Below are positions 132 through 13,143 of a stretch of DNA of 64,000 nt, piece after piece. This DNA comes from Bradyrhizobium sp. B097 (GTDB taxonomy: Bacteria; Pseudomonadota; Alphaproteobacteria; Rhizobiales; Xanthobacteraceae). The stretch spans positions 6,444,501-6,508,500 of the forward strand of contig NZ_CP152412.1 in NCBI RefSeq assembly GCF_038957035.1, read 5' to 3'. Below the pieces are notes generated by a model that was not told where the DNA came from, made no database searches, and saw nothing but the letters and a program-made list of their open reading frames with translations. How positions within the stretch are numbered: the first letter of the stretch is position 1; each line of letters begins with the position of its first letter. Made by a program: the position numbers and the translations under genes.

Positions 132-911
132 ATGCAGCTTTCCGTCAACGGGGCCGATACCTTCATCGCGACCGGCGGCAAGCCGTTCGATCCGCAGCTC
201 GCCACGGTGGTGATGATCCACGGCGCCGGCTTCGACTCTTCGACCTGGGCGCTGCACAGCCGCTGGTTCGCCCATCACGGCTATTCCGTGCTGGCGCCGG
301 ATCTCCCCGGCCACGGCCGCTCCGCCGGCAAGCCGCTCGCGACCATCGCCGAGATGGCTGACTGGACCGCCGCGCTGATTACTGCGGCCGGCGCGTCGAA
401 GGCGCGGCTGATCGGTCATTCGATGGGCTCGCTAATCGCGATCGAGACCTCGGCACGGCATCCCGACAAGGTCTCCGGCCTCGCGCTGATCGGCACCGCC
501 GCGACCATGACGGTCGGCCCCGATCTGTTGAAGGCGGCCGAGGCCAATGACGTGGCCGCGATCGACATGGTCTCGATCTGGGGACTCGGCTTCAGGGCCG
601 AGCTCGGCGGCAGCCTCGCGCCCGGCCTCTGGATGCACCAGGGCGCGCAGCGGGTGCTGCAGGAGGCCAAGCCCGGCGTGCTCTACAACGACCTCAACGC
701 CTGCAACGCCTACCAGAACGCGCTCACGGCTGCGGCCGCGGTCAAGGTGCCCGCGACGTTCGTGCTCGGCGAGCGCGACATGATGACCCCCGCCAAGGCC
801 GGCAAGGCGCTCGCCGCCGCGACGCCGAATGCCCGCACCGTGGTGTTGCCAGGCGCCGGCCACATGATGATGGTCGAGCAACCCGACGAGCTACTGGCCG
901 CGCTGCGGTAG
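132..911 (+). CDS. alpha/beta hydrolase
   Basis: A 259-residue cytoplasmic alpha/beta-hydrolase of normal family length. The oxyanion HGAGFD motif is near residue 30, the nucleophile elbow GHSMGS places Ser97, and the C-terminal acid and base are probably Asp216 (GERD) and His244 (GAGH). This set fits an esterase, lactonase or C-C hydrolase; the substrate cannot be told. The ATG start lies four bases after the preceding stop, so the gene probably shares that transcript. Its last ~140 bases and ~170 bases of downstream DNA recur as a diverged copy about 5.9 kb away, beyond the giant minus-strand gene. Confidence 0.9.
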   Translation: MQLSVNGADTFIATGGKPFDPQLATVVMIHGAGFDSSTWALHSRWFAHHGYSVLAPDLPGHGRSAGKPLATIAEMADWTAALITAAGASKARLIGHSMGSLIAIETSARHPDKVSGLALIGTAATMTVGPDLLKAAEANDVAAIDMVSIWGLGFRAELGGSLAPGLWMHQGAQRVLQEAKPGVLYNDLNACNAYQNALTAAAAVKVPATFVLGERDMMTPAKAGKALAAATPNARTVVLPGAGHMMMVEQPDELLAALR

Positions 912-1084
912 CGACGCCGCGAAGCCTTCTCCCGCTGTGGGAAAAGATGGCGCGCAACGAGCGCCCAAAAAATATCGAAAACAACCCCATGCAAAGTAGC
1001 AGGGCGGCAGCCGGCACTCGGACAAACAACTTGACGCGTCGGGCAAATCAGCGATATCTTCCATTATTCCGAAATCTCGCGAAC
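768..1084 (+). repeat. left copy of a ~320-base diverged direct repeat flanking the island
   Basis: This covers the last 48 codons of the hydrolase gene and about 170 bases of downstream noncoding DNA. A diverged copy lies at about 6718-7046. Both begin at the same 12 bases (GGCGAGCGCGAC), and both have the same noncoding block (an ATCGAAAACAACCCC tract, then a GATATCTTC tract) before similarity fades. The rest of this 297-base gap up to the giant gene holds no gene that I can support. Confidence 0.75.
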
Positions 1085-1208
1085 GTCTCGCCGCCTGCGC
1101 GCGTCCGGCACGCTTGATCAGACGCCCCCTCCGCACGGGAGGCTCTAAGCGCCTCGCGAAGGAGTGGTACGTTCATTTGTGACATGGTCGAGGGGAAAGC
1201 CCGCCACT

Positions 1209-4200
1209 CTAGGTTCGATCGGCACGCAGAAGCCTCCGGGCGCGCTCCTGTAGCGCAAGGGCCGCAGCTACCTGTCTAGCAACGAGAATATCAATCAAAG
1301 TGAGATACGTTGAACGAGCCGCAGGGCTACCGGCGAGGAGCGAGATATCCTCAGTAAGCATCGCGTCGAGCAGATTTACCAAGCTATCGAGCGCAGAAGA
1401 TCTCGAGGCGATGTAGACCGGATGTTCGCCAACGAGGGCGGAGTGAATCCATTCGAGACCACCCAAGCGCAGTCGTTTCCCTGTCGACGAGCTAAGGAAT
1501 GCGCAAATCGCCGTTATGTTGTCGTCGTCCCTTCTGAGATGCGCGACGGCCCAAGCGTCATACAGCGACTTCAGCTCGAAAACCAGTGTCTGAAAGGCCG
1601 GGTTAGCGTTCAGGGTAGACGTTGCATTGCATCCCAACACCTGAGTGAGAATCCTCTGGCCGTAAAACCAAGGATTCCCGTTGCCCCAAGTCGGAGAGCT
1701 CAATGCATACTCAATCATCCGACCCCAGCGCGCCACAAATTCTTCGGCGTCAGCCGTAGCCGCCTCGTCGAACCAATACTGAAAGAAAGTGCCGATCGCG
1801 TGATGCGCAGGAGCGCCCAACCTGAGAACAGGCTCCCACAGGTCAATCGCAGATTCGATTGGCTCTCGCGAAATACGCTTGGCAAGGTGACTCAGCAGAT
1901 TATAGCCAAGCTGTGTTGGTCCCGGATCGTCGTCGAGTTCATCGTCCGAACGATGCCGAAGCCAGACTTCAAAGGACCAGAGAGACAGGAGGAGCCGCCG
2001 TTCCTCCGCTAGTTCGGCAGCTGTCCCGGTTGGTGATCCGTTCTCACGGTCCGAAAGGGAGAGCCAATAGAAGGCATTTTCTAAGAAAGACCAATCAAGA
2101 CCGTTCGAACGCCGATCATCGGGCGGAAAATCCCGACGCCAACCCGGCTTGCTATGAGAACGCCTCCAACGAGCACGCTCAAGCCGTTCAACGCGATTCG
2201 CGATATTTGCTGCGTCGATCCTCTCCAGAGAAGGTGATGCTCCTTCGATCCGCCAACCCCGAAAGCGACGAAGCCAAGCATCCCAGACGGGAGTTGCGTC
2301 TTCATCACCGTATCCCGGTCGGAGGATAGAAAGACCAGCCCAAAGAAGACCAAGGTCAACCAACCGCGGCCATCGCTCCCCAATCCTGCGACGCTGTAGG
2401 TACGCCAGCGAGAACAACAGTTTCTCGGCGCCGCTATTGCCGCTGGTCATTAGCTTCATGACAGCAGCATCGGTCTCGATAGATGGGCTTTCCAACCAGT
2501 TGTAAAATACTGCGTACGTTAGGAAGGTTAGATTGTCGTGGAGGTCGTACTTGGCGCGCCGAGCCTCTTCGGCAGTTTCAGCGATGCTCGCAAGCTCCCT
2601 ACGGACGATCTCACTCACTTCCTGCTTGATGTCGGCATGCTCCGAAAGCCAATCGCGGGCCTTTGCTGCGAGGGTGCTCGCGACGGCAATCCTTGCACGA
2701 GATTTGAAGTCATCTTCTAGAGAAGATTCGTTATCAATAATCGGCAGGCAAGCGGCGAGTTGTTGGGCCTTGTCGGAATCCAACGGTTCAGTCCGACCTA
2801 GAATTCCCAAGCAATGGTCAGGAAGGGCCAAAACGGTCTGAGGGGCGACTTTCGACTGTTGAAATGCAATTATGTCGGCAGCTAAGTCAGTCGGACACCT
2901 GAACTCGCGTTTCTTCTCGCCATCAGCCCCGGCAGCGGCGACAACATAGTTTGCGCTGTCGAGCCGCGCTTGCAGAATCCTTTGTTCAAGTGCAGCTTTC
3001 TCGTCGCCTGTTGCCGTCCACGTCGCGGCCACTTCTCCGAGGGATTTAGCGAAGCTATCATTTGTGCCAATGAGCTCCACAATGATGCTCGTCATCGTCA
3101 CCCTATGATGAGCGGCGAAGTGCCAATCCCGGGCAATGTTGAATGCAATCTCGCCGAGTGGAGCAAATTGCATTCCAGCAAAATGGACGTGCAAATCCTC
3201 AACAAGGTTCTCGTCAAAGAGATGGAGTGCTTTGTTTGACGCTAGCGGCCTAAGAACATTGAGAAAGAGATCAGGTTTAAGCTTGCCGGCGTTGACCAGC
3301 ACGGCAAGAACCGCCACCGATTGCGTACCTTGAATGAGCTTCTCTGCGAGTGGCGTAATATCTTCGCCAGCTTCCACTAGCAGTGAGAGCCAGCGCTCAA
3401 GCGCGGCCAGACCACTGTTGAGCTGGCCGGCTGAGCTAGCGTTTGACAGGCACCAATCGTAGACACGACTGTTGCCAAAATACTCCTTCTCGCTCCCATC
3501 ATTCATCCGAAGCTTAATGCTCGGGTAACGCCCTTCGGAGTGTCGTTTAACTTCGTTGATCCATCGGTCCGTACAGAAATTGACAAGCTTTACGAACGTT
3601 TCGAGCGCGACGTCGCGGTCAATCTGAAAAAAGGAAAAGAAGGGGCTCTTCCAGTATCCTGTCGGATAGGACAGGCTATCGTATTCAAGTCCTGCGTTCT
3701 CCTTAAAGCGCGACGTCCCATACTCTTCTTCAGGCGCGCTCTCGACGATGACCGCCAACAGCAGTTCCGCGGCTGCAGCCGGTCGAACCCTCATCAAAGG
3801 GAGAAGGGCCGCTCCATGAGCGCACGTGTTTCGAAAATGTGTGTCAAGGCGGCGTCGAGGCCCCATCGGCCACGGCGGTAACTTTCGCCCCGAAGGAATG
3901 TAGGTCGGGAACGACTGCTTTTGCTCATGCCGCGCTCTGTATTGCTCATCTGTGAGCAACCGTTCTTGGTGCTCAGCGGCTTCCCTTTTTCGGTGTTCCG
4001 CGACGGCGGCCGCGAGATACGCATCTAAGGGGCGACGTTGGGCCATTTCGAGCGCCCATTCAGAGACCTTATCTGGCAAGTCAGGCGCGGCAGCAAATGC
4101 CGCTGAGAAGATCTGCTTGACCGATTCATCTGCGAAGATCGTATTTTTTCTCTGTTCCAGCTGGACCGCACGAGCGGTCGCTACGGCAAGTTCGGCGAAC

Positions 4201-6524
4201 TGCTTGCGAAGCGGAAAAGGGGAACCACCGTACTCTGCTGGAAACGCGCTCAACCAGCGTTCGCATACGCTGCCGACGACGGAGGCGCAAAGACCGGCAA
4301 TTGCCGCCTGATGGGCGCTTAAGAACCTCGCGAGGCCTCCCCAACGCCCAGGTATGGGCGTCCGAAACTGAGCCTCCAGATAAAGGGAGAATGAAGGCTC
4401 AGCATAGAGGACGTCAGCAAGGAGTTTAGACTGGCCGCCGGGGACCGTCGCGACATGGAGGAACCGACGAAGCAAACGGTTGAGCTGCCTGCCATGTCCA
4501 CCGAGGAGAAGATCGATGCGTTCAGTGAGGAATACTTCAGCATTCGGGTCTAGACACAGGGCATCCAGCAAGACATCGGCCGCAGATGCATTCCCGCTGT
4601 TGCTAGCCACGGACTCGAATGCGACGTCCCAGGCGGAGCGGCCGTCCGGCGCCCTTTCGCGGAGGAGAAATCCGCCGAGCATGCGAAGAGCGCCCAACCA
4701 AAGCGGATTGCTTGCTAAAGCGGCCCACTGTTCGGTGTCCATCGCAATTGATTTCAGGCTTTGAAATCGAGCCCAGTCAGAGGCCAGGTCATGCTCGAAC
4801 TCGATCCGGTTGTAACGGTTGCGGCGGAGCGGAAGCTGGGGCGGCTTGCTATCAATAGCCTGGGCATCGCCCGGCTCGAGTTTGCTAACTTCGAAGCTGT
4901 GCTCGAAATTGGCTTCGCGAGTGGCAAGGACCATCAAGGTACGCTGGAGGACTACACGGTCGTCCGTCCAGTAGCGCCATAATTGATCCGCAATGGTAAT
5001 GTGCGACGTAAGCGACGAGGCGTCCCCGTTCTCGAATTGAGTGGCCGCTTGCAGGACCCAAGCCAGGGTCCGGAGATTTGTGAGCGTATAGACGATCTCA
5101 TCGTGCGCAACCGCCCATTTCAGTTGTGGTGCCGATAGGAGGCCTTGCCGGACCTCATCTGCTGCGAGGAGTCTCACGTCGTAGTACAGCGGCAAGGTGG
5201 AGTTGCTAATGCGCTGCAGCTTACCCCGCGACCAAGCATCAACTTGGCCGACGATGATCACGCGCCAACTCGATAGCGAGAGCTTGTTATGTTCAATGAG
5301 GGTGCCGACGAGTGACTGCGCCTGAGCTGCAAGCTCGTCGGGGAACCGTTCGGCCGCGTCCAGCACGAGAACGTTTTCGGAAGACGGGCTGTAGCGCAAG
5401 ACATCTGCTAGAGGCCCGTTGAAGCCAACGGATTGGCGTTTCAGAGGCGAAAGAAGAGTCTCCAAATCATCCAGTCTCAACCAAACTTGTTTCCAGGTAG
5501 GATAGCGCTGATCCAGCGTCGATTTTACAAGAGCCGATTTTCCGGTCCCCGATTCACCATACACCACGACAATCGACCCGATCGAGAGGCGGTCGACCAG
5601 CGCGTCTGTCCCGGCCTGCCGTTCAAGCGAAGTGCCTGTTGGAAGTGTGGTTTGGACTTGGGCCCTAACATCACTGGTAATCGCATCGAGCGCAGTCCAC
5701 GGGCGTTCGAAATTGATATGGCCTTTCAGGATGAACGTCTTGGTCAGTTTCGACCAAAGTAGATCTAACTTGATAATGCCGTGAGTTGTGCGCGCCGCTT
5801 CAGCCTCGTCGACTAATGCAACCCACAACTGGACCGCTTCGGCCTGCTCACCGCTCACTAGAAGGCGTCGGCATTGACTAATCGCCGCGGCTCGGTTCTC
5901 TGAATTTGGAAGGTCGAAGTCGGTTGAGAGAACCTCCAATGTGGAAAGCAGCGCGATCACATCCTGGTCTGATACGGTGGGATCAACAGTCTGGATGGCC
6001 GCTTTTGCATTGTCGAAAATCTTGGCGTGAGCCGCTGTCTGCTTTGAACGAGCAAGAGCAAGCGGATTGTCTGGATGAGAAGTCCAGCTTTTGATGTCGG
6101 CCCAGAGCGGTTCGAAGGTTTGGTGCTTGCCGCGCGTTGCAAGCATCAGTTTGTCTTTAGCGCGATTGAAAGAGCCTCCTGGCTGAGCGTTCTTCCACTG
6201 TTGCCAGCTCGAAAGGACGAAGCTGTTGGGTAAGCCTGTTCCGGTTACCTGTGTATTGCTTTTGCACGAAATGGCTAGTTTATCGGCCGAACGACTGACG
6301 GCGATTACATCATCGATCGACCACCCGAGGGCGGCTGTCTGCATGTAAAGTACATCGCCAAGAGCCTCGTCCCCGAGACTGGGGAGTGGCTCACCGGACA
6401 GCATCTTAACAAGCAGATAGGCTGCTACCTGGTCCTCGAAAACGAATCCGGGGCCGGCGGTAGATCGCGTCGTTACCGACGGTTTCCGGTTACGGGGTCC
6501 AGATTGGTCGGATTCGTTCACCAT
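1209..6524 (-). CDS. giant nuclease-STAND NTPase, candidate Avs-like antiviral protein
   Basis: A 1771-residue single gene in an otherwise ordinary neighbourhood. Seen: an N-terminal region (residues ~25-110) with Glu30, an Asp pair in SIDDVIAV (71-72) and Lys88 in ISCKSN, in the order and spacing of a PD-(D/E)xK nuclease core; then a P-loop domain with Walker A GESGTGKS (323-330) and a Walker B-like VLVLDAAE (~385-392); then ~1,200 residues without a motif I recognise, rich in Leu, Ala and Trp and probably mostly helical. Known: this layout (nuclease, STAND NTPase, long C-terminal sensor), at 1,500-1,800 residues and often as a lone gene, is that of Avs (AVAST) proteins, which recognise phage proteins and then cut DNA. 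Inferred: a defence role. Base and codon use is less GC-rich than that of its neighbours. ATG start; the next Met is residue 41, inside the nuclease core. It could instead be a NACHT-like protein of other function. Confidence 0.8.
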   Translation of the reverse strand: MVNESDQSGPRNRKPSVTTRSTAGPGFVFEDQVAAYLLVKMLSGEPLPSLGDEALGDVLYMQTAALGWSIDDVIAVSRSADKLAISCKSNTQVTGTGLPNSFVLSSWQQWKNAQPGGSFNRAKDKLMLATRGKHQTFEPLWADIKSWTSHPDNPLALARSKQTAAHAKIFDNAKAAIQTVDPTVSDQDVIALLSTLEVLSTDFDLPNSENRAAAISQCRRLLVSGEQAEAVQLWVALVDEAEAARTTHGIIKLDLLWSKLTKTFILKGHINFERPWTALDAITSDVRAQVQTTLPTGTSLERQAGTDALVDRLSIGSIVVVYGESGTGKSALVKSTLDQRYPTWKQVWLRLDDLETLLSPLKRQSVGFNGPLADVLRYSPSSENVLVLDAAERFPDELAAQAQSLVGTLIEHNKLSLSSWRVIIVGQVDAWSRGKLQRISNSTLPLYYDVRLLAADEVRQGLLSAPQLKWAVAHDEIVYTLTNLRTLAWVLQAATQFENGDASSLTSHITIADQLWRYWTDDRVVLQRTLMVLATREANFEHSFEVSKLEPGDAQAIDSKPPQLPLRRNRYNRIEFEHDLASDWARFQSLKSIAMDTEQWAALASNPLWLGALRMLGGFLLRERAPDGRSAWDVAFESVASNSGNASAADVLLDALCLDPNAEVFLTERIDLLLGGHGRQLNRLLRRFLHVATVPGGQSKLLADVLYAEPSFSLYLEAQFRTPIPGRWGGLARFLSAHQAAIAGLCASVVGSVCERWLSAFPAEYGGSPFPLRKQFAELAVATARAVQLEQRKNTIFADESVKQIFSAAFAAAPDLPDKVSEWALEMAQRRPLDAYLAAAVAEHRKREAAEHQERLLTDEQYRARHEQKQSFPTYIPSGRKLPPWPMGPRRRLDTHFRNTCAHGAALLPLMRVRPAAAAELLLAVIVESAPEEEYGTSRFKENAGLEYDSLSYPTGYWKSPFFSFFQIDRDVALETFVKLVNFCTDRWINEVKRHSEGRYPSIKLRMNDGSEKEYFGNSRVYDWCLSNASSAGQLNSGLAALERWLSLLVEAGEDITPLAEKLIQGTQSVAVLAVLVNAGKLKPDLFLNVLRPLASNKALHLFDENLVEDLHVHFAGMQFAPLGEIAFNIARDWHFAAHHRVTMTSIIVELIGTNDSFAKSLGEVAATWTATGDEKAALEQRILQARLDSANYVVAAAGADGEKKREFRCPTDLAADIIAFQQSKVAPQTVLALPDHCLGILGRTEPLDSDKAQQLAACLPIIDNESSLEDDFKSRARIAVASTLAAKARDWLSEHADIKQEVSEIVRRELASIAETAEEARRAKYDLHDNLTFLTYAVFYNWLESPSIETDAAVMKLMTSGNSGAEKLLFSLAYLQRRRIGERWPRLVDLGLLWAGLSILRPGYGDEDATPVWDAWLRRFRGWRIEGASPSLERIDAANIANRVERLERARWRRSHSKPGWRRDFPPDDRRSNGLDWSFLENAFYWLSLSDRENGSPTGTAAELAEERRLLLSLWSFEVWLRHRSDDELDDDPGPTQLGYNLLSHLAKRISREPIESAIDLWEPVLRLGAPAHHAIGTFFQYWFDEAATADAEEFVARWGRMIEYALSSPTWGNGNPWFYGQRILTQVLGCNATSTLNANPAFQTLVFELKSLYDAWAVAHLRRDDDNITAICAFLSSSTGKRLRLGGLEWIHSALVGEHPVYIASRSSALDSLVNLLDAMLTEDISLLAGSPAARSTYLTLIDILVARQVAAALALQERARRLLRADRT

Positions 6525-6561: not shown

Positions 6562-6717
6562 GAAGCGTCGCCCAGAGGTAGTAGGCCGAGCTGCAAGGTA
6601 CGGCGCAAGCTCAATGGAATGTTCGGCGTATAACTGCAAAGGTAGTGTCGGCGACGATAGCGTCGGCGGTATTGCGAGGCTCGATTGCCAGGCTGCTCAA
6701 AATTGGGAGATCGCTGC

Positions 6718-6860
6718 GGCGAGCGCGACAAGATGACCCCGGCCAAGGCCGGCAAGGGCCTCGCTGCGGCGACGCCGAATGCCGAATTGTCGTGCTGCCG
6801 GGTGCGGGTCACATGATGATGGTTGAGCAGCCCGACGAGTTGCTGGCGGCGCTGCGGTAG
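6718..6860 (+). pseudogene. 3' fragment of a second copy of the alpha/beta hydrolase gene
   Basis: It encodes the same C-terminus as the hydrolase at 132-911, ending in GHMMMVEQPDELLAALR and a stop. Similarity starts abruptly at GGCGAGCGCGAC, and one base is missing near 6783 relative to the intact gene, which breaks the frame. There is no 5' part of the gene. The base differences from the intact copy are many and scattered, so this is not a recent exact duplication. Confidence 0.75.
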
Positions 6861-7046
6861 CGGAGCCGCGGGCTCCTCTTCCCTTGTCGGAGAGGGTCGC
6901 GCGGACGCGGGCCCGCGCCGGATGAGCGCCGTCAAAAAATCGAAAACAACCCCATGCAAAGTAGCCGGGGGCCGCCGGCCCTCTGACAAGCAACTTGACA
7001 CGTCGAGCAACTCAGCGATATCTTCTATTATTCCGAAATACCGCAA
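6718..7046 (+). repeat. right copy of the diverged direct repeat flanking the island
   Basis: Counterpart of 768-1084, comprising the hydrolase 3' fragment and the same noncoding tail. The two copies bracket the giant minus-strand gene. No integrase, transposase or tRNA gene lies with them. The stretch 6562-6717 between the promoter and this repeat holds nothing I can assign. Confidence 0.72.
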
Positions 7047-7142
7047 ACGCCCAGTCCGACAGCGTAGGCGTCCGTCGCGAAGAGCGAAATTAGCTTGCGT
7101 TGCGTTGAGTCCTTTTGCACTCTCAGCTCAGGAGGCCGATGC

Positions 7143-7427
7143 ATGAAGATGAAGATAATGACCGTCGCGTGCGCTCTCGGAACGGCCCTGGTGCTGTGTA
7201 ACCTCGGGACCTCCGCTGCTGAGGCCCGGACGCGGAAGGCACAAGTCGTTCATGAACGAACGAGGGTCGTGATCTCGACGCCCGTGATAACGCCGACTCC
7301 GTGGGATTATTATATTGTTCCACGATATCGCTATCGCCCTGAAGACGACCGGGTCGATCCATATGGGCCGCCCCTGGTGTCGTCTTGGCGGCTCTATGAG
7401 GGGTGGCGGTGGCCGTACTGGTGGTGA
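7143..7427 (+). CDS. small exported protein, hypothetical
   Basis: A 94-residue protein with a classical signal peptide: Lys-rich start, hydrophobic stretch TVACALGTALVLC, and a likely cleavage near Ala-Glu-Ala at residues ~25-28. The mature part is short, basic and then rich in Tyr, Pro, Arg and Trp (YYIVPRYRYRP, ending RWPYWW). The start is set by a GGAGG seven bases upstream; an upstream TTG-initiated extension is unlikely because it would precede the signal peptide. I do not recognise a named family. It is probably periplasmic or surface-associated, and stands alone. Confidence 0.7.
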   Translation: MKMKIMTVACALGTALVLCNLGTSAAEARTRKAQVVHERTRVVISTPVITPTPWDYYIVPRYRYRPEDDRVDPYGPPLVSSWRLYEGWRWPYWW

Positions 7428-7914
7428 ACAGCGATCACGCCAAACAGGTCGCATTCCGGGAGAAGTGGTGATCGTTCCCTGACGGACGCGGCGCTGGAGC
7501 GTAACGCCGGGACAAGATCGCGCATCGTGATGCTGCGTAGTGACTACGGACCGCTGTGGGTCAAATGCCGCCGTTGGGGGTCCAACCGGGCGGCGTCCGC
7601 TCTATAGGCGGCTTCGGGCCAGAGGCGGACCTTCGGAGGGTAGAGATCATTCGTGCTTGAGTGGTGCTACGAATGCCGTAGCTAGTCGCGACCCTCGTAG
7701 GTCAGCCAACGTCTTGCCGGCGCTGACGGCTTTGTTAACGACAGCCACTTCCGCACTATGCTGCGCAGCTAAGCTGAAGTGCTGTCTCGAATGTGTGCGT
7801 AGCCATTCAACGAAACTCTCAACACTCCGCCACGTCGGGTCGTCTGAAAATCGCTGTGGTGGCCCAAAGCTTTCGTCCTTGTTGGGCCACTGCGGCGGCG
7901 TTCGCCCGGTTCGG
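7428..7914. other. 487-base stretch without a supportable gene
   Basis: Open frames exist on both strands, but their compositions (Arg/Ser/Pro-rich, with no Shine-Dalgarno-supported start) look like shadows. A minus-strand frame around 7647-7870 has a moderately protein-like end (SVESFVEWLRTHSRQHF) but no clear start, so it may be a decayed gene. No repeat or RNA gene was recognised. Confidence 0.4.
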
Positions 7915-8573: not shown

Positions 8574-8733
8574 CGTTGTTCTCCCGATGACGTTACGGGA
8601 GAGGATCTGTCTTCCCAGCACCCGTGCCGAATATGGCGCCACGCGAGGCTTCTGAGAACTACCTAGAAAGGTGGTTCGCTGTGCTTTATGTTTGCCCGCG
8701 CCGGCTCGGCTTCCTGCACAGGTTGGGAATGAC

Positions 8734-9531
8734 ATGCATCTCTCGACCGACCCCACCGATCCGCAAAATCAAGAAGTCTATGCACTCTGGGATCAGCTGG
8801 CCGAGTTCTCTGTCGTCGACGGTGACGCCGCGCTGATACACCTGCTGTCCGCGCTGCGTACTATGTTGTCGGCACGCAATGTGCTATGGGGTGCCGTCGT
8901 GCGATTGCCTTCGCCGAAGCGGGCGGATCCCTTGCTCGGCTGGCGTCCGCGCCTCGTCAGGGTGCTGGACCCGATACCGGCGGTGGCGGCGTCGGTGCAG
9001 AAGCAGTACGACACACTCTGGTCCGACGACGTCGACCTGTCTCAGATCCTTTCTATGTCGGGCGATGAGCCGTTCCGCGTCCGCCTGCTGTTCGAAGCGC
9101 TGCCGCCGGAATGGTTCGAGGGCAAGCACTATCGGCGGCACTATCTGGACGTCGGCTTCGCCGACAGCATTTCCGTGCGCATTGCGCTCAATGACGACGT
9201 GAGGATTCGTCTGTTCGTGTTTCGCGATGCGCAGGCGCCCCGCTTTACGGCGCAGGACGGCCAGCGTCTGGGCTTCGTCATGCGCGCCTTGAGATGGTTT
9301 CACCGAGAACAATTGCTCAGCCACGGGCTGCTCATCGCCAACGCGCCCCTCACACCCGCTGAACGCCGCGTGTTGCTCGCCCTGCTCGACGGGGACACCG
9401 AAAGCCGGATCGCGCAGAAGCTCGACCAAAGTCCGAACACCACGCATTTCCACGTCAAATCGATCTACGCCAAGTTCGGCGTGCGCAACCGCCCGTCGCT
9501 CTCTGCGCTCTGGCTTGGCAAGCTGCGATAA
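8734..9531 (+). CDS. LuxR-family transcriptional regulator
   Basis: A 265-residue cytoplasmic regulator. The C-terminal ~50 residues form a GerE/LuxR helix-turn-helix: LTPAERRVLLALLDG, then RIAQKLDQSPNTTHFHV as the recognition region and SIYAKFGVRNR. The N-terminal ~200 residues match no sensor domain I can name with confidence and may bind a small ligand. The ATG giving MHLSTD is preferred to the upstream in-frame start because the added residues are low-complexity. Divergent from the small gene ending at 8573; the 160-base gap between them may carry both promoters. Targets unknown. Confidence 0.82.
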   Translation: MHLSTDPTDPQNQEVYALWDQLAEFSVVDGDAALIHLLSALRTMLSARNVLWGAVVRLPSPKRADPLLGWRPRLVRVLDPIPAVAASVQKQYDTLWSDDVDLSQILSMSGDEPFRVRLLFEALPPEWFEGKHYRRHYLDVGFADSISVRIALNDDVRIRLFVFRDAQAPRFTAQDGQRLGFVMRALRWFHREQLLSHGLLIANAPLTPAERRVLLALLDGDTESRIAQKLDQSPNTTHFHVKSIYAKFGVRNRPSLSALWLGKLR

Positions 9532-9970: not shown

Positions 9971-10993
9971 TCACTGCTTCGCAGGCTTCCGCTCGATCGG
10001 GTGGATCTCGATCGCGCGGAGGCGGCCGAGGCGGAGTACGTCCAGCGACAGGGTCCGGTCGATCCGGCTGTGATCGAGCGCGCGGATCAGGTCGTCGACG
10101 CCGTGGATCTCGACGCCGTCGAGCCTGATGACGACGTCGCCGGGCAACAGGCTGGCGCGCGCTGCCGGGCTGTCCGGCTCGATCTGCATCAGGAGAGCAC
10201 CCATCTTGTTCTCGACGCCGGCGAGCACCGCATGCCGCCTTGGCACCGGCGCAGTCTGGCCTGCAACGCCGATATAGGCGCGGCGGACATAGCCGTGGCG
10301 GATGATCTCCGACAACACGAACTGCGCGGTGTTGCTGGCGACCGCAAAGCAGATGCCCTGCGCGCCGTTGATGATCGCGGTGTTGATCCCGATCACCTCG
10401 CCCTTCGAGGACACCAGCGGCCCGCCGGAATTGCCGGGATTGAGCGCGGCGTCGGTCTGGATCACGTCCTCGATGGTGCGCCCGCTGACCGAACGGATCG
10501 AGCGGCCGAGCGCCGACACCACGCCGGCGGTTACCGTCGATTCGAAGCCGAGCGGATTGCCGATCGCGACCACCAGCTGGCCGCGCCGCAGTGTCTTCGA
10601 GTTGCCGAGCGAAGCGTAAGGCAGGTCGCGCGCGCCATCCGCCCGCAGCAAGGCAAGGTCGGTGTCGGGATCGACGCCGAGCACATGGGCATCGGTGTCA
10701 AAGCCCTCGGTGTCGCGCAGGCGGATCTCCTTCGACGATCCGACCACATGGCTGTTGGTCAGCACGAAGCCGTCGGGCGAGATCACGATGCCCGAGCCGA
10801 GCCCGCCGCGCTCGCGCGCGTTGCGCACCCTGGGTCCGGTTTCGACGCGGACCACCGCGGGACCGACGCGGTCGGTGACGTCGATCACGGCATTGGAATA
10901 GGCGTCGAGCAACGCCCGGTCATCGGTTTGAGCAGCATCAGCCGCCCGCGATGACGGCGTGTCAGCAGCGACATCTGAGGTAAAATCCAGCAT
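9971..10993 (-). CDS. HtrA/DegP-like trypsin-fold serine protease with one PDZ domain
   Basis: A 340-residue protease. The catalytic triad is complete: His82 (TNSHVV), Asp112 (DTDLALL) and Ser189 (GNSGGPL). One PDZ domain follows (~residues 255-335, including LLPGDVVIRLDGVEI). Known: HtrA proteins degrade or chaperone misfolded envelope proteins. Odd: no signal peptide or N-terminal membrane helix can be seen; the first 30 residues are polar, so this copy may act in the cytoplasm or the start may be misassigned. Monocistronic by spacing. Confidence 0.88.
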   Translation of the reverse strand: MLDFTSDVAADTPSSRAADAAQTDDRALLDAYSNAVIDVTDRVGPAVVRVETGPRVRNARERGGLGSGIVISPDGFVLTNSHVVGSSKEIRLRDTEGFDTDAHVLGVDPDTDLALLRADGARDLPYASLGNSKTLRRGQLVVAIGNPLGFESTVTAGVVSALGRSIRSVSGRTIEDVIQTDAALNPGNSGGPLVSSKGEVIGINTAIINGAQGICFAVASNTAQFVLSEIIRHGYVRRAYIGVAGQTAPVPRRHAVLAGVENKMGALLMQIEPDSPAARASLLPGDVVIRLDGVEIHGVDDLIRALDHSRIDRTLSLDVLRLGRLRAIEIHPIERKPAKQ

Positions 10994-11541: not shown

Positions 11542-13143
11542 TCAGTCGAACAGATTGGCGAGGCGCTGCTTCATCTGGTCGGCGATGTAGAGCGCGAGGG
11601 CCTGGATGGTGGAGGTCGGGTTCACGCCACCCGAGGTGACGAAGATGCTGCCGTCGACGATGAAGAGGTTCTTCACGTCGTGCGAGCGGCCCCATTCGTT
11701 GACCACCGAGCGCGCGGGATCGGTCCCCATTCGCGCGGTGCCGAGCAGATGCCAACCGCCCCAGGGGATCGGATCGTTGATACAGATGTCGGTGGCGCCG
11801 GCGGCCTCGAGGATCTCCCGGCCCCGCGCCAGGCCGTGATCCATCATCTTCCGGCTGTTCGCGCTGATCGTGTAGTCGATCTTCGGCGCCGGGATGCCGT
11901 GGCTGTCCTTCAGATCAGGATCGAGCGTGACGCGGTTATGCTCCTCCGGCAGATCCTCGCAGATCGCCGACACCGCGAGACGATGACCGTTGAGCTTGCG
12001 GAACACGCGGTGATGATCCCCACCCCAGGGCAGGATGCCCTTCTGCTCGCTCGCGACCGCCTCGAACACCGGCCCGGCGCCGCGGCCGAACTGGATGCCG
12101 TAGCCGCGGACGAAGCCGCGCGACAGATCCGTGTCGTAGAATTCCTTGCTCCACAGGCAGGTCGGCGGCGCATGGTTGCTGTCGGTCGGCTCCTTCACGA
12201 AGCCGTAGACCTGCGCGTAGGGATGGAACATCAGGTTCTTGCCGACCAGGCCCGACGAGTTGGCGAGGCCATTCGGGAATTTTCCCGACACCGAATTGAG
12301 CAGCAGCCGCGGCGTGCCGACGCCGTTGCAAGCGATGATGACGACCTCGGCCGGCTGGAATTGCTCGACGCCGTCCTTGTCGTAATAGACGACGCCCGAG
12401 GCCATGCCGTGCTCGTTGGTCAGGACCTCGCGCACCCGGCAATGGGTCTTGACCTCGACCCCAGCGCGGATCGCGTGCGGCCAGTAGGTGATGTCGGTCG
12501 AGGCCTTGGCACCCTGGGCACAGGCCGGCGTGCAGTGGCCGAGATTGATGCAGCGCGCCCTGCCCTCGTAGTCCATCGTCGCGACCGTGGTGTCCGACGG
12601 CCACCAGTGCCAGCCGAGCTTGTTCATGGCCTTGCCGATCAGCGGGCCTGACAGCCCGAGCGGCTGCTGCGGCATCGGCGGATGGCTGAGCGGCGACAGC
12701 GGATCGCCCGACAGGCCCGAGACGCCCATCATGCGATCGTTCTCCTCGAAAAACGGGGTGAGCGCGTCGTAGTCGATCGGCCAGTCGTCGGCGACGCCGT
12801 CAAGCGTCCTCACCTTGAAGTCGGAGGGATGCAGCCGCGGCCAATGCGCCGTGTACATCACCGTCGAGCCGCCGACGGCGTTGAAGTTGACGACCTTGAT
12901 CGGCGAGTTGTCGTCATTGATCGGGTAGTCCTCGGGCCGGCGGCGAACGTTCGGGCTGGATGACCACTCGCCGTAGAATTTCGCCTCCCAGTCGCGCCCG
13001 GTGCTCGGATATTCGGCAGGGTTCATCCAGCCGCCCTGATCGAGGCAGAGGATATGCATCTTGGTATCGGCGAGGCTCCAGGCTATCGCGGCGCCGGAGG
13101 CGCCGGCGCCGATGATCAGGACGTCAACGGGATCGTTCTTCAT
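11542..13143 (-). CDS. GMC-family FAD oxidoreductase
   Basis: A 533-residue flavoprotein with an N-terminal dinucleotide fold (VLIIGAGASGAAIA, residues ~9-22) and the GMC C-terminal block (HLLGTARMG, then NPTSTIQALAL), where the His and Asn flank the active site. It oxidises an alcohol or sugar; the linked subunit-3-like gene suggests a gluconate- or polyol-dehydrogenase-type enzyme passing electrons to the respiratory chain. No cytochrome subunit is adjacent. It starts the two-gene minus-strand operon. Confidence 0.88.
   Translation of the reverse strand: MKNDPVDVLIIGAGASGAAIAWSLADTKMHILCLDQGGWMNPAEYPSTGRDWEAKFYGEWSSSPNVRRRPEDYPINDDNSPIKVVNFNAVGGSTVMYTAHWPRLHPSDFKVRTLDGVADDWPIDYDALTPFFEENDRMMGVSGLSGDPLSPLSHPPMPQQPLGLSGPLIGKAMNKLGWHWWPSDTTVATMDYEGRARCINLGHCTPACAQGAKASTDITYWPHAIRAGVEVKTHCRVREVLTNEHGMASGVVYYDKDGVEQFQPAEVVIIACNGVGTPRLLLNSVSGKFPNGLANSSGLVGKNLMFHPYAQVYGFVKEPTDSNHAPPTCLWSKEFYDTDLSRGFVRGYGIQFGRGAGPVFEAVASEQKGILPWGGDHHRVFRKLNGHRLAVSAICEDLPEEHNRVTLDPDLKDSHGIPAPKIDYTISANSRKMMDHGLARGREILEAAGATDICINDPIPWGGWHLLGTARMGTDPARSVVNEWGRSHDVKNLFIVDGSIFVTSGGVNPTSTIQALALYIADQMKQRLANLFD

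Follow-up and report, generated by a model that had tools for sequence, protein, structure and literature searches.

According to the accessible parts of PMC12724215 and PMC12931631, Avs proteins sense an intruder through their C-terminal domain, oligomerise in an ATP-dependent manner and thereby activate their N-terminal effector; Avs1 to Avs3 recognise the large terminase and Avs4 the portal, and the nucleases of Avs1 to Avs4 cut both phage and host DNA. Avs5 is described in the same part of PMC12931631 as having an early jumbo-phage protein, JADA, as its ligand, and the available part of PMC12799240 presents the effector genes of defence systems as drawn from an interchangeable pool. Here we analysed a window of 64,000 nucleotides from Bradyrhizobium sp. 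B097 (contig NZ_CP152412.1, positions 6,444,501 to 6,508,500). One minus-strand gene of this window, at 1209..6524, presents the layout of the Avs (AVAST) superfamily within a single protein: an N-terminal effector, a central STAND nucleoside triphosphatase (NTPase) and a large C-terminal sensor. We consider it highly probable that this gene was acquired by horizontal transfer and encodes, on its own, an anti-phage receptor belonging to the Avs4 lineage.

Architecture and N-terminal domain of the window protein

The open reading frame (ORF) comprises 1771 codons, with an ATG start and no internal stop. Its features are the following.

1209..6524, minus strand: whole gene, 1771 residues, nuclease, STAND NTPase and alpha-solenoid sensor
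5670..6524, minus strand: residues 1-285, predicted PD-(D/E)xK nuclease of the Cap4/LmuA/Avs3 fold with a helical part (AlphaFold2, Foldseek, second aligner)
6435..6437, minus strand: Glu30, predicted catalytic, in helix 25-42 (53 of 59 alignment rows, AlphaFold2 model)
6309..6314, minus strand: Asp71-Asp72, predicted catalytic, immediately before strand 73-77 (59 of 59 rows, model)
6261..6263, minus strand: Lys88, predicted catalytic, at the end of strand 82-88 (59 of 59 rows, model)
5535..5558, minus strand: Walker A motif GESGTGKS, residues 323-330
5349..5372, minus strand: Walker B-like motif VLVLDAAE, residues 385-392
4725..5669, minus strand: residues 286-600, STAND NTPase region, limits approximate (profile match)
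1212..4724, minus strand: residues 601-1771, alpha-solenoid sensor with the Avs4 fold (predicted model)
3192..3719, minus strand: residues 936-1111, sensor segment nearest to Avs4 in sequence, aligned with residues 762-938 of 8dgf (profile match)
2025..3194, minus strand: residues 1111-1500, fastest-changing part, candidate ligand-specificity region

The ORF and its motifs lie where the original prediction, made by a model from the letters of this DNA, had placed them. The database entry of the window protein (P0002, 1711 residues) begins at Met61 and therefore misses Glu30. The longer start is supported because a block around residues 18-31 is conserved among the homologues. Domain order, the predicted fold of both ends of the protein and the conservation of the catalytic and NTPase residues were all computed here. 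Conservation was assessed on an alignment of 59 rows, consisting of the query and 58 of the 65 protein-search hits; the seven proteins left out were P0002, which is the window's own shorter-start copy, five short proteins and the distant P0066. Residues D71, D72, K88, K329, S330, D389 and E392 are invariant in 59/59 rows, and E30 is present in 53/59 rows, the other six having a gap at this position. This conservation and the N-terminal structure model rule out a chance assembly of motifs.

Residues 1-290 were modelled by AlphaFold2 with 65 homologues, at a mean predicted local distance difference test score (pLDDT) of 92.2. The core of the model follows the order helix 25-42, strand 55-61, strands 73-77 and 82-88, helix 100-111 and strand 125-131. 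Foldseek matched it to LmuA (E 5.8e-7), Avs3 (5.5e-5) and Cap4 (3.3e-4). Ten PDB chains were found at E <= 0.001 (four Lamassu LmuA, one Hachiman, Avs3 and four Cap4), and all of them come from anti-phage systems. The second aligner gave Z scores of 14.9 for Cap4, 14.7 for LmuA, 14.2 for Avs3 and 13.2 for a HerA-DUF assembly, and just 6.4 for the DUF4297-HerA entry. The N-terminus is thus predicted to have a Cap4/Avs3-type PD-(D/E)xK nuclease fold, on whose presence the original prediction had staked itself beforehand.

Three homologues (P0035, P0036 and P0078) carry an additional XRE-type helix-turn-helix on the N-terminal side of the nuclease. Such a domain would suit a regulator or stress-response STAND ATPase rather than a defence protein, as would the position of the window copy as a lone gene amid metabolic genes. 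We regard this alternative as very unlikely, given the invariant catalytic Asp and Lys, the exclusively anti-phage origin of the ten structural matches and the sporadic, mobile distribution described below.

The NTPase and sensor in relation to Avs4

The STAND match, together with the nuclease and sensor folds, supports the nuclease-STAND architecture and Avs-like identity first proposed for this gene. Residues 286-435 align with residues 188-331 of EcAvs4 (8dgf) in a profile match. A housekeeping NTPase was rejected, as no such family scored above its cut-off in the family scans; a match of that kind had been named in advance as evidence against the proposal. The model of residues 580-1771 (pLDDT 88.6) matches the fold of Avs4 (8dgf) over about 1000 residues, with 8dgf as the clear best match. 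As the sensor model takes the Avs4 fold, a new sensor fold was rejected, and the earlier suggestion that the C-terminal sensor may be new is not supported, since the profiles also match Avs4-type proteins.

The family profile matched four canonical Avs4-type proteins at E 4.1e-28 over 1322 columns, from residue 276 to near the end. When the parts were separated, the NTPase and sensor together matched canonical Avs4 at E 4e-27 over 834 columns and the sensor alone at 1.6e-16 over 493 columns. The corresponding values against the P0066 group, Avs4-type proteins with a Cap4-like N-terminus, were 1.6e-37 and 2.2e-26. Reversed controls, which cover the NTPase-plus-sensor and nuclease comparisons, gave 0.5 and 0.07, respectively.

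Homology to Avs4 over NTPase and sensor, and an N-terminus unlike that of EcAvs4, are thus direct results of these comparisons. The window protein shares with EcAvs4 its STAND NTPase, the whole alpha-solenoid sensor from residue 276 and the organisation as a single large gene, whereas EcAvs4 has 188 residues ahead of the NTPase and the window protein 285. The two N-termini matched at a profile E of 0.82 over 23 columns; the EcAvs4 N-terminal profile consists of two sequences, so that this value excludes sequence likeness and leaves a remote common fold possible. The EcAvs4 nuclease is called Mrr-like. The P0066 group has the same three-part architecture as the window protein (1610 columns, E 8.9e-63) and matching N-terminal parts (E 1e-23), but is 17% identical to it and forms a separate clade. 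P0066 and four relatives score 482-621 bits against the PADLOC Avs4 profile, with matches beginning only at residues 271-291, so that a Cap4-like N-terminus also occurs on closer kin of Avs4.

A second subfamily, 28-30% identical to the first, is found in 3 of 265 genomes of the genus (G030, G281 and G158), and both subfamilies align over their whole length (E 2e-195, 1706 columns). A quick tree was built from 46 rows of our choosing, among them 22 from the family and three from subfamily 2; in it, a branch with support 100 splits these two from Avs4 and the P0066 group. The tree serves only for this clade split, since the search was quick, branches are long, composition is odd and one row (Azospirillum, L093), flagged by the program, wanders. 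Because of the profile matches and this split, we place the window protein in a lineage that is sister to Avs4 and outside Avs4 itself. The protein reaches 33.6 bits against the NCBI Avs4 equivalog NF041815, below its cut-off of 1500 bits, and 25 bits against the PADLOC Avs4 profile. The original prediction that it could not be assigned to any of Avs1 to Avs5 is therefore right as to the NCBI threshold, but its nearest kin is Avs4.

An Avs4-type NTPase-sensor protein with just 56 residues ahead of the NTPase was observed on Calothrix plasmid5 (L091:706-5841). A separate small gene lies directly upstream and may be the effector.

Distribution, mobility and genomic context

A search of 5.8 billion proteins returned 65 hits, of which 60 span 93% or more of the query. 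A profile search yielded 243 protein clusters at E <= 1e-5; the 120 best, which were detailed, all reach a query coverage of at least 93%. Named members come from Bradyrhizobium, to which the best named homologues (P0003 and P0008) belong, and from Paraburkholderia, Burkholderia, Aeromonas, an Acidobacteriaceae and a deltaproteobacterial metagenome-assembled genome; their database labels are mostly hypothetical protein, ATP-binding protein or transporter-like names. One Paraburkholderia member shares 84% identity with one from Aeromonas, which suggests transfer of the family between classes. Within the genus, 9 of the 265 genomes match at E <= 0.001; in five of these, counting the window's own, the member is nearly full length and at least 43% identical. 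G030 and G281 hold a first-subfamily gene besides that of subfamily 2, and the subfamily-2 gene of G158 is broken or split. In a phylum-wide search, a single genome out of 397 others matched at E <= 1e-20, there in two pieces belonging to one open frame; in a sample of this kind the family is therefore rare. A class-wide search for Avs4 matched 21/190 genomes at E <= 0.001, mostly over short NTPase stretches and none above the cut-off. No relative was confirmed in a scan of genome contigs with the single protein, and phage records gave no match.

Relatives occur on a Paraburkholderia caledonica plasmid, adjoining an HNH endonuclease gene, and on a conjugative Aromatoleum plasmid (A. aromaticum plasmid 2), where the gene lies among integrases and is interrupted by an insertion sequence (IS) element. 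A contig from a viral collection carries a receptor gene (L056:9986-15253) 85% identical to the P. caledonica copy, along with a CII-like regulator, a phage-type primase and an RHS-repeat protein; this element may be a prophage or a phage satellite. Near the subfamily-2 copy of G281, at one locus, DISARM DrmA and DrmB were clearly matched by PADLOC. The context of the relatives is mobile and in part defence-like, and falls short of proving defence.

Two other neighbours were observed repeatedly. A protein of 1228-1233 residues is the immediate neighbour of the receptor in G233 and G030 (L058:3517-7203 and L008:12314-16015); it is 62% identical between the two genomes, has no Pfam or PADLOC match and is possibly a recurrent partner or a second defence gene. 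At two loci, the subfamily-2 receptor gene is immediately followed by the gene of a YaaC-domain protein (L009:5379-6917 and L062:7227-8951), with copies 92% identical between the two genomes, the L009 copy matching PF14175.

The window gene is compositionally foreign, as had been noted at the outset: its guanine-plus-cytosine (GC) content is 0.56 and its GC at third codon positions (GC3) 0.60, against a GC3 of 0.76-0.91 in four nearby genes. Its surroundings are as follows.

132..911, plus strand: alpha/beta hydrolase gene adjoining the insertion, intact
767..1085, plus strand: left duplication copy, 3' end of the intact hydrolase gene and dispersed repeat
6717..7049, plus strand: right duplication copy, frameshifted 3' end of the hydrolase and dispersed repeat
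8671-9531, plus strand: LuxR-type regulator

The opposite orientation ascribed to the gene holds for the hydrolase and the LuxR-type regulator, but not for the genes at 9971-10993 and 11542-13143, whose strand is minus like that of the receptor gene. The diverged flanking duplication was confirmed as four ungapped blocks of 76-91% identity between 767-1085 and 6717-7049. It includes an intergenic repeat of about 115 bases (969-1085 and 6933-7049) with many further matches, both in this genome and elsewhere in the genus. In all five gene-free sites (G147, G116, G043, G048 and G009), which were taken from the best DNA matches and not drawn at random, the hydrolase end and repeat are present without the receptor gene. 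Sequence like that to the right of the gene past 7049 follows in four of them; the G116 match ends at 7048. G048 has a second partial match to the hydrolase end downstream (114 bases, 77%). The hydrolase part of the right copy is less similar to all five gene-free strains than that of the left copy, its repeat part is closer to G147 and G009 than the left repeat part, and 6933-7497 is 96% identical to G147. This pattern fits an acquisition that either brought in or duplicated the hydrolase end.

When the ORFs of the first 22 kb were compared with eleven relative loci (185 ORFs), only the receptor gene had a counterpart at E <= 1e-6. The family is thus not tied to one site, and a single conserved chromosomal site, which would have spoken against the original prediction, was rejected, the homologues being found at differing sites. 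Broken relatives, IS-interrupted in A. aromaticum plasmid 2 and split in G158, raise the alternative that the window copy is itself decaying and inactive; this is very unlikely, as its ORF is complete and uninterrupted, retains all motifs and shows a purifying pattern.

Candidate ligand, proposed mode of action and known systems

The gene is real, well conserved and mobile, and very probably encodes an anti-phage receptor. Several observations weigh against this reading or against its Avs4 part. Four genes close by in the window encode a hydrolase, a LuxR-type regulator, an HtrA-like protease and a GMC oxidoreductase, and four large genes further left match aldehyde dehydrogenase (two genes), O-acetylhomoserine sulfhydrylase and an ABC transporter; the window copy thus lies in an ordinary metabolic neighbourhood and no recognised defence island. 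At seven related loci of the Bradyrhizobium type, 18 larger neighbours were tested with PADLOC, which matched two clearly (the DISARM pair) and two weakly, and 14 gave no match. As the parts-separated match to canonical Avs4 extends only to about residue 1222, the assignment of the last third of the sensor rests on the full-length profile match and the fold. Finally, identity to EcAvs4 is about 13%, so the ligand may have changed.

Residues 1111-1500 are 58% identical to the G233 relative, against 67-74% for the other five parts, and contain most of the lowest-information 50-residue blocks of the 59-row alignment. Because it changes fastest, this region is a candidate for ligand specificity. 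The family and subfamily 2 may form a separate Avs type in which the Avs4 fold is only a scaffold, a non-portal ligand (another virion protein or an early phage protein) is recognised through about residues 1111-1500, and a Cap4-fold nuclease replaces that of EcAvs4. The support-100 split, the low identity to EcAvs4 and the rapid change of residues 1111-1500 argue for such a type, and related receptors have other ligands, such as JADA for Avs5 (in the accessible part of PMC12931631). An Avs4 sensor fold over about 1000 residues and the sensor-only profile matches fit a retained binding mode instead, and we hold the separate type to be somewhat short of an even chance. By analogy with Avs4, the portal would be our first guess for the ligand, with about an even chance of being correct; given the 13% identity, a changed ligand appears nearly as likely.

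For a receptor of the Avs4 lineage, we propose that the C-terminal alpha-solenoid (about residues 600-1771) would bind a conserved protein of the phage, the portal being the likeliest. The STAND domain would thereby be freed to act and the protein would oligomerise, gathering the N-terminal Cap4/Avs3-fold PD-(D/E)xK domains, which would then cut double-stranded DNA and abort infection. The ligand in particular, but also the defence activity, the oligomerisation and the cutting of DNA, we infer by homology to the Avs chain of events. With this assignment, up to 243 protein clusters, mostly unnamed in databases, would gain an Avs4-like sensor identity, and their ligand would become directly testable, portal proteins first. 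The family also offers a natural experiment, with a similar sensor scaffold, a different nuclease and a large sequence distance, that would reveal how far an NLR-like sensor can drift yet still recognise a viral fold.

Among the other known systems, Avs3 (8dgc) shares the Cap4-type nuclease fold with the window protein, whose sensor has Avs4 as its clear best match. The sensor of Avs3 was not compared separately, and 8dgc has no row among the best 50 sensor-model matches, so that an Avs3-type (terminase-binding) sensor is still possible; a search with the 238-position Avs3 model gave one match, which was not used further. Cap4 of CBASS, LmuA of Lamassu and the HerA-DUF assembly have a related nuclease, which the window protein instead fuses to a STAND NTPase and a solenoid. 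No SAVED domain, as in Cap4 of CBASS, was found in the window protein at E <= 1, residues 286 onwards being STAND and solenoid. Lamassu has a separate LmuA with an adjoining SMC partner, LmuB; no SMC protein was found among the eight neighbours examined, a set that leaves out some neighbours. No paper describing this family was found among open PMC titles and abstract starts, and an earlier description in other Avs literature is possible. As far as these searches reach, the window protein is new as a clade and as a combination, and known in kind.
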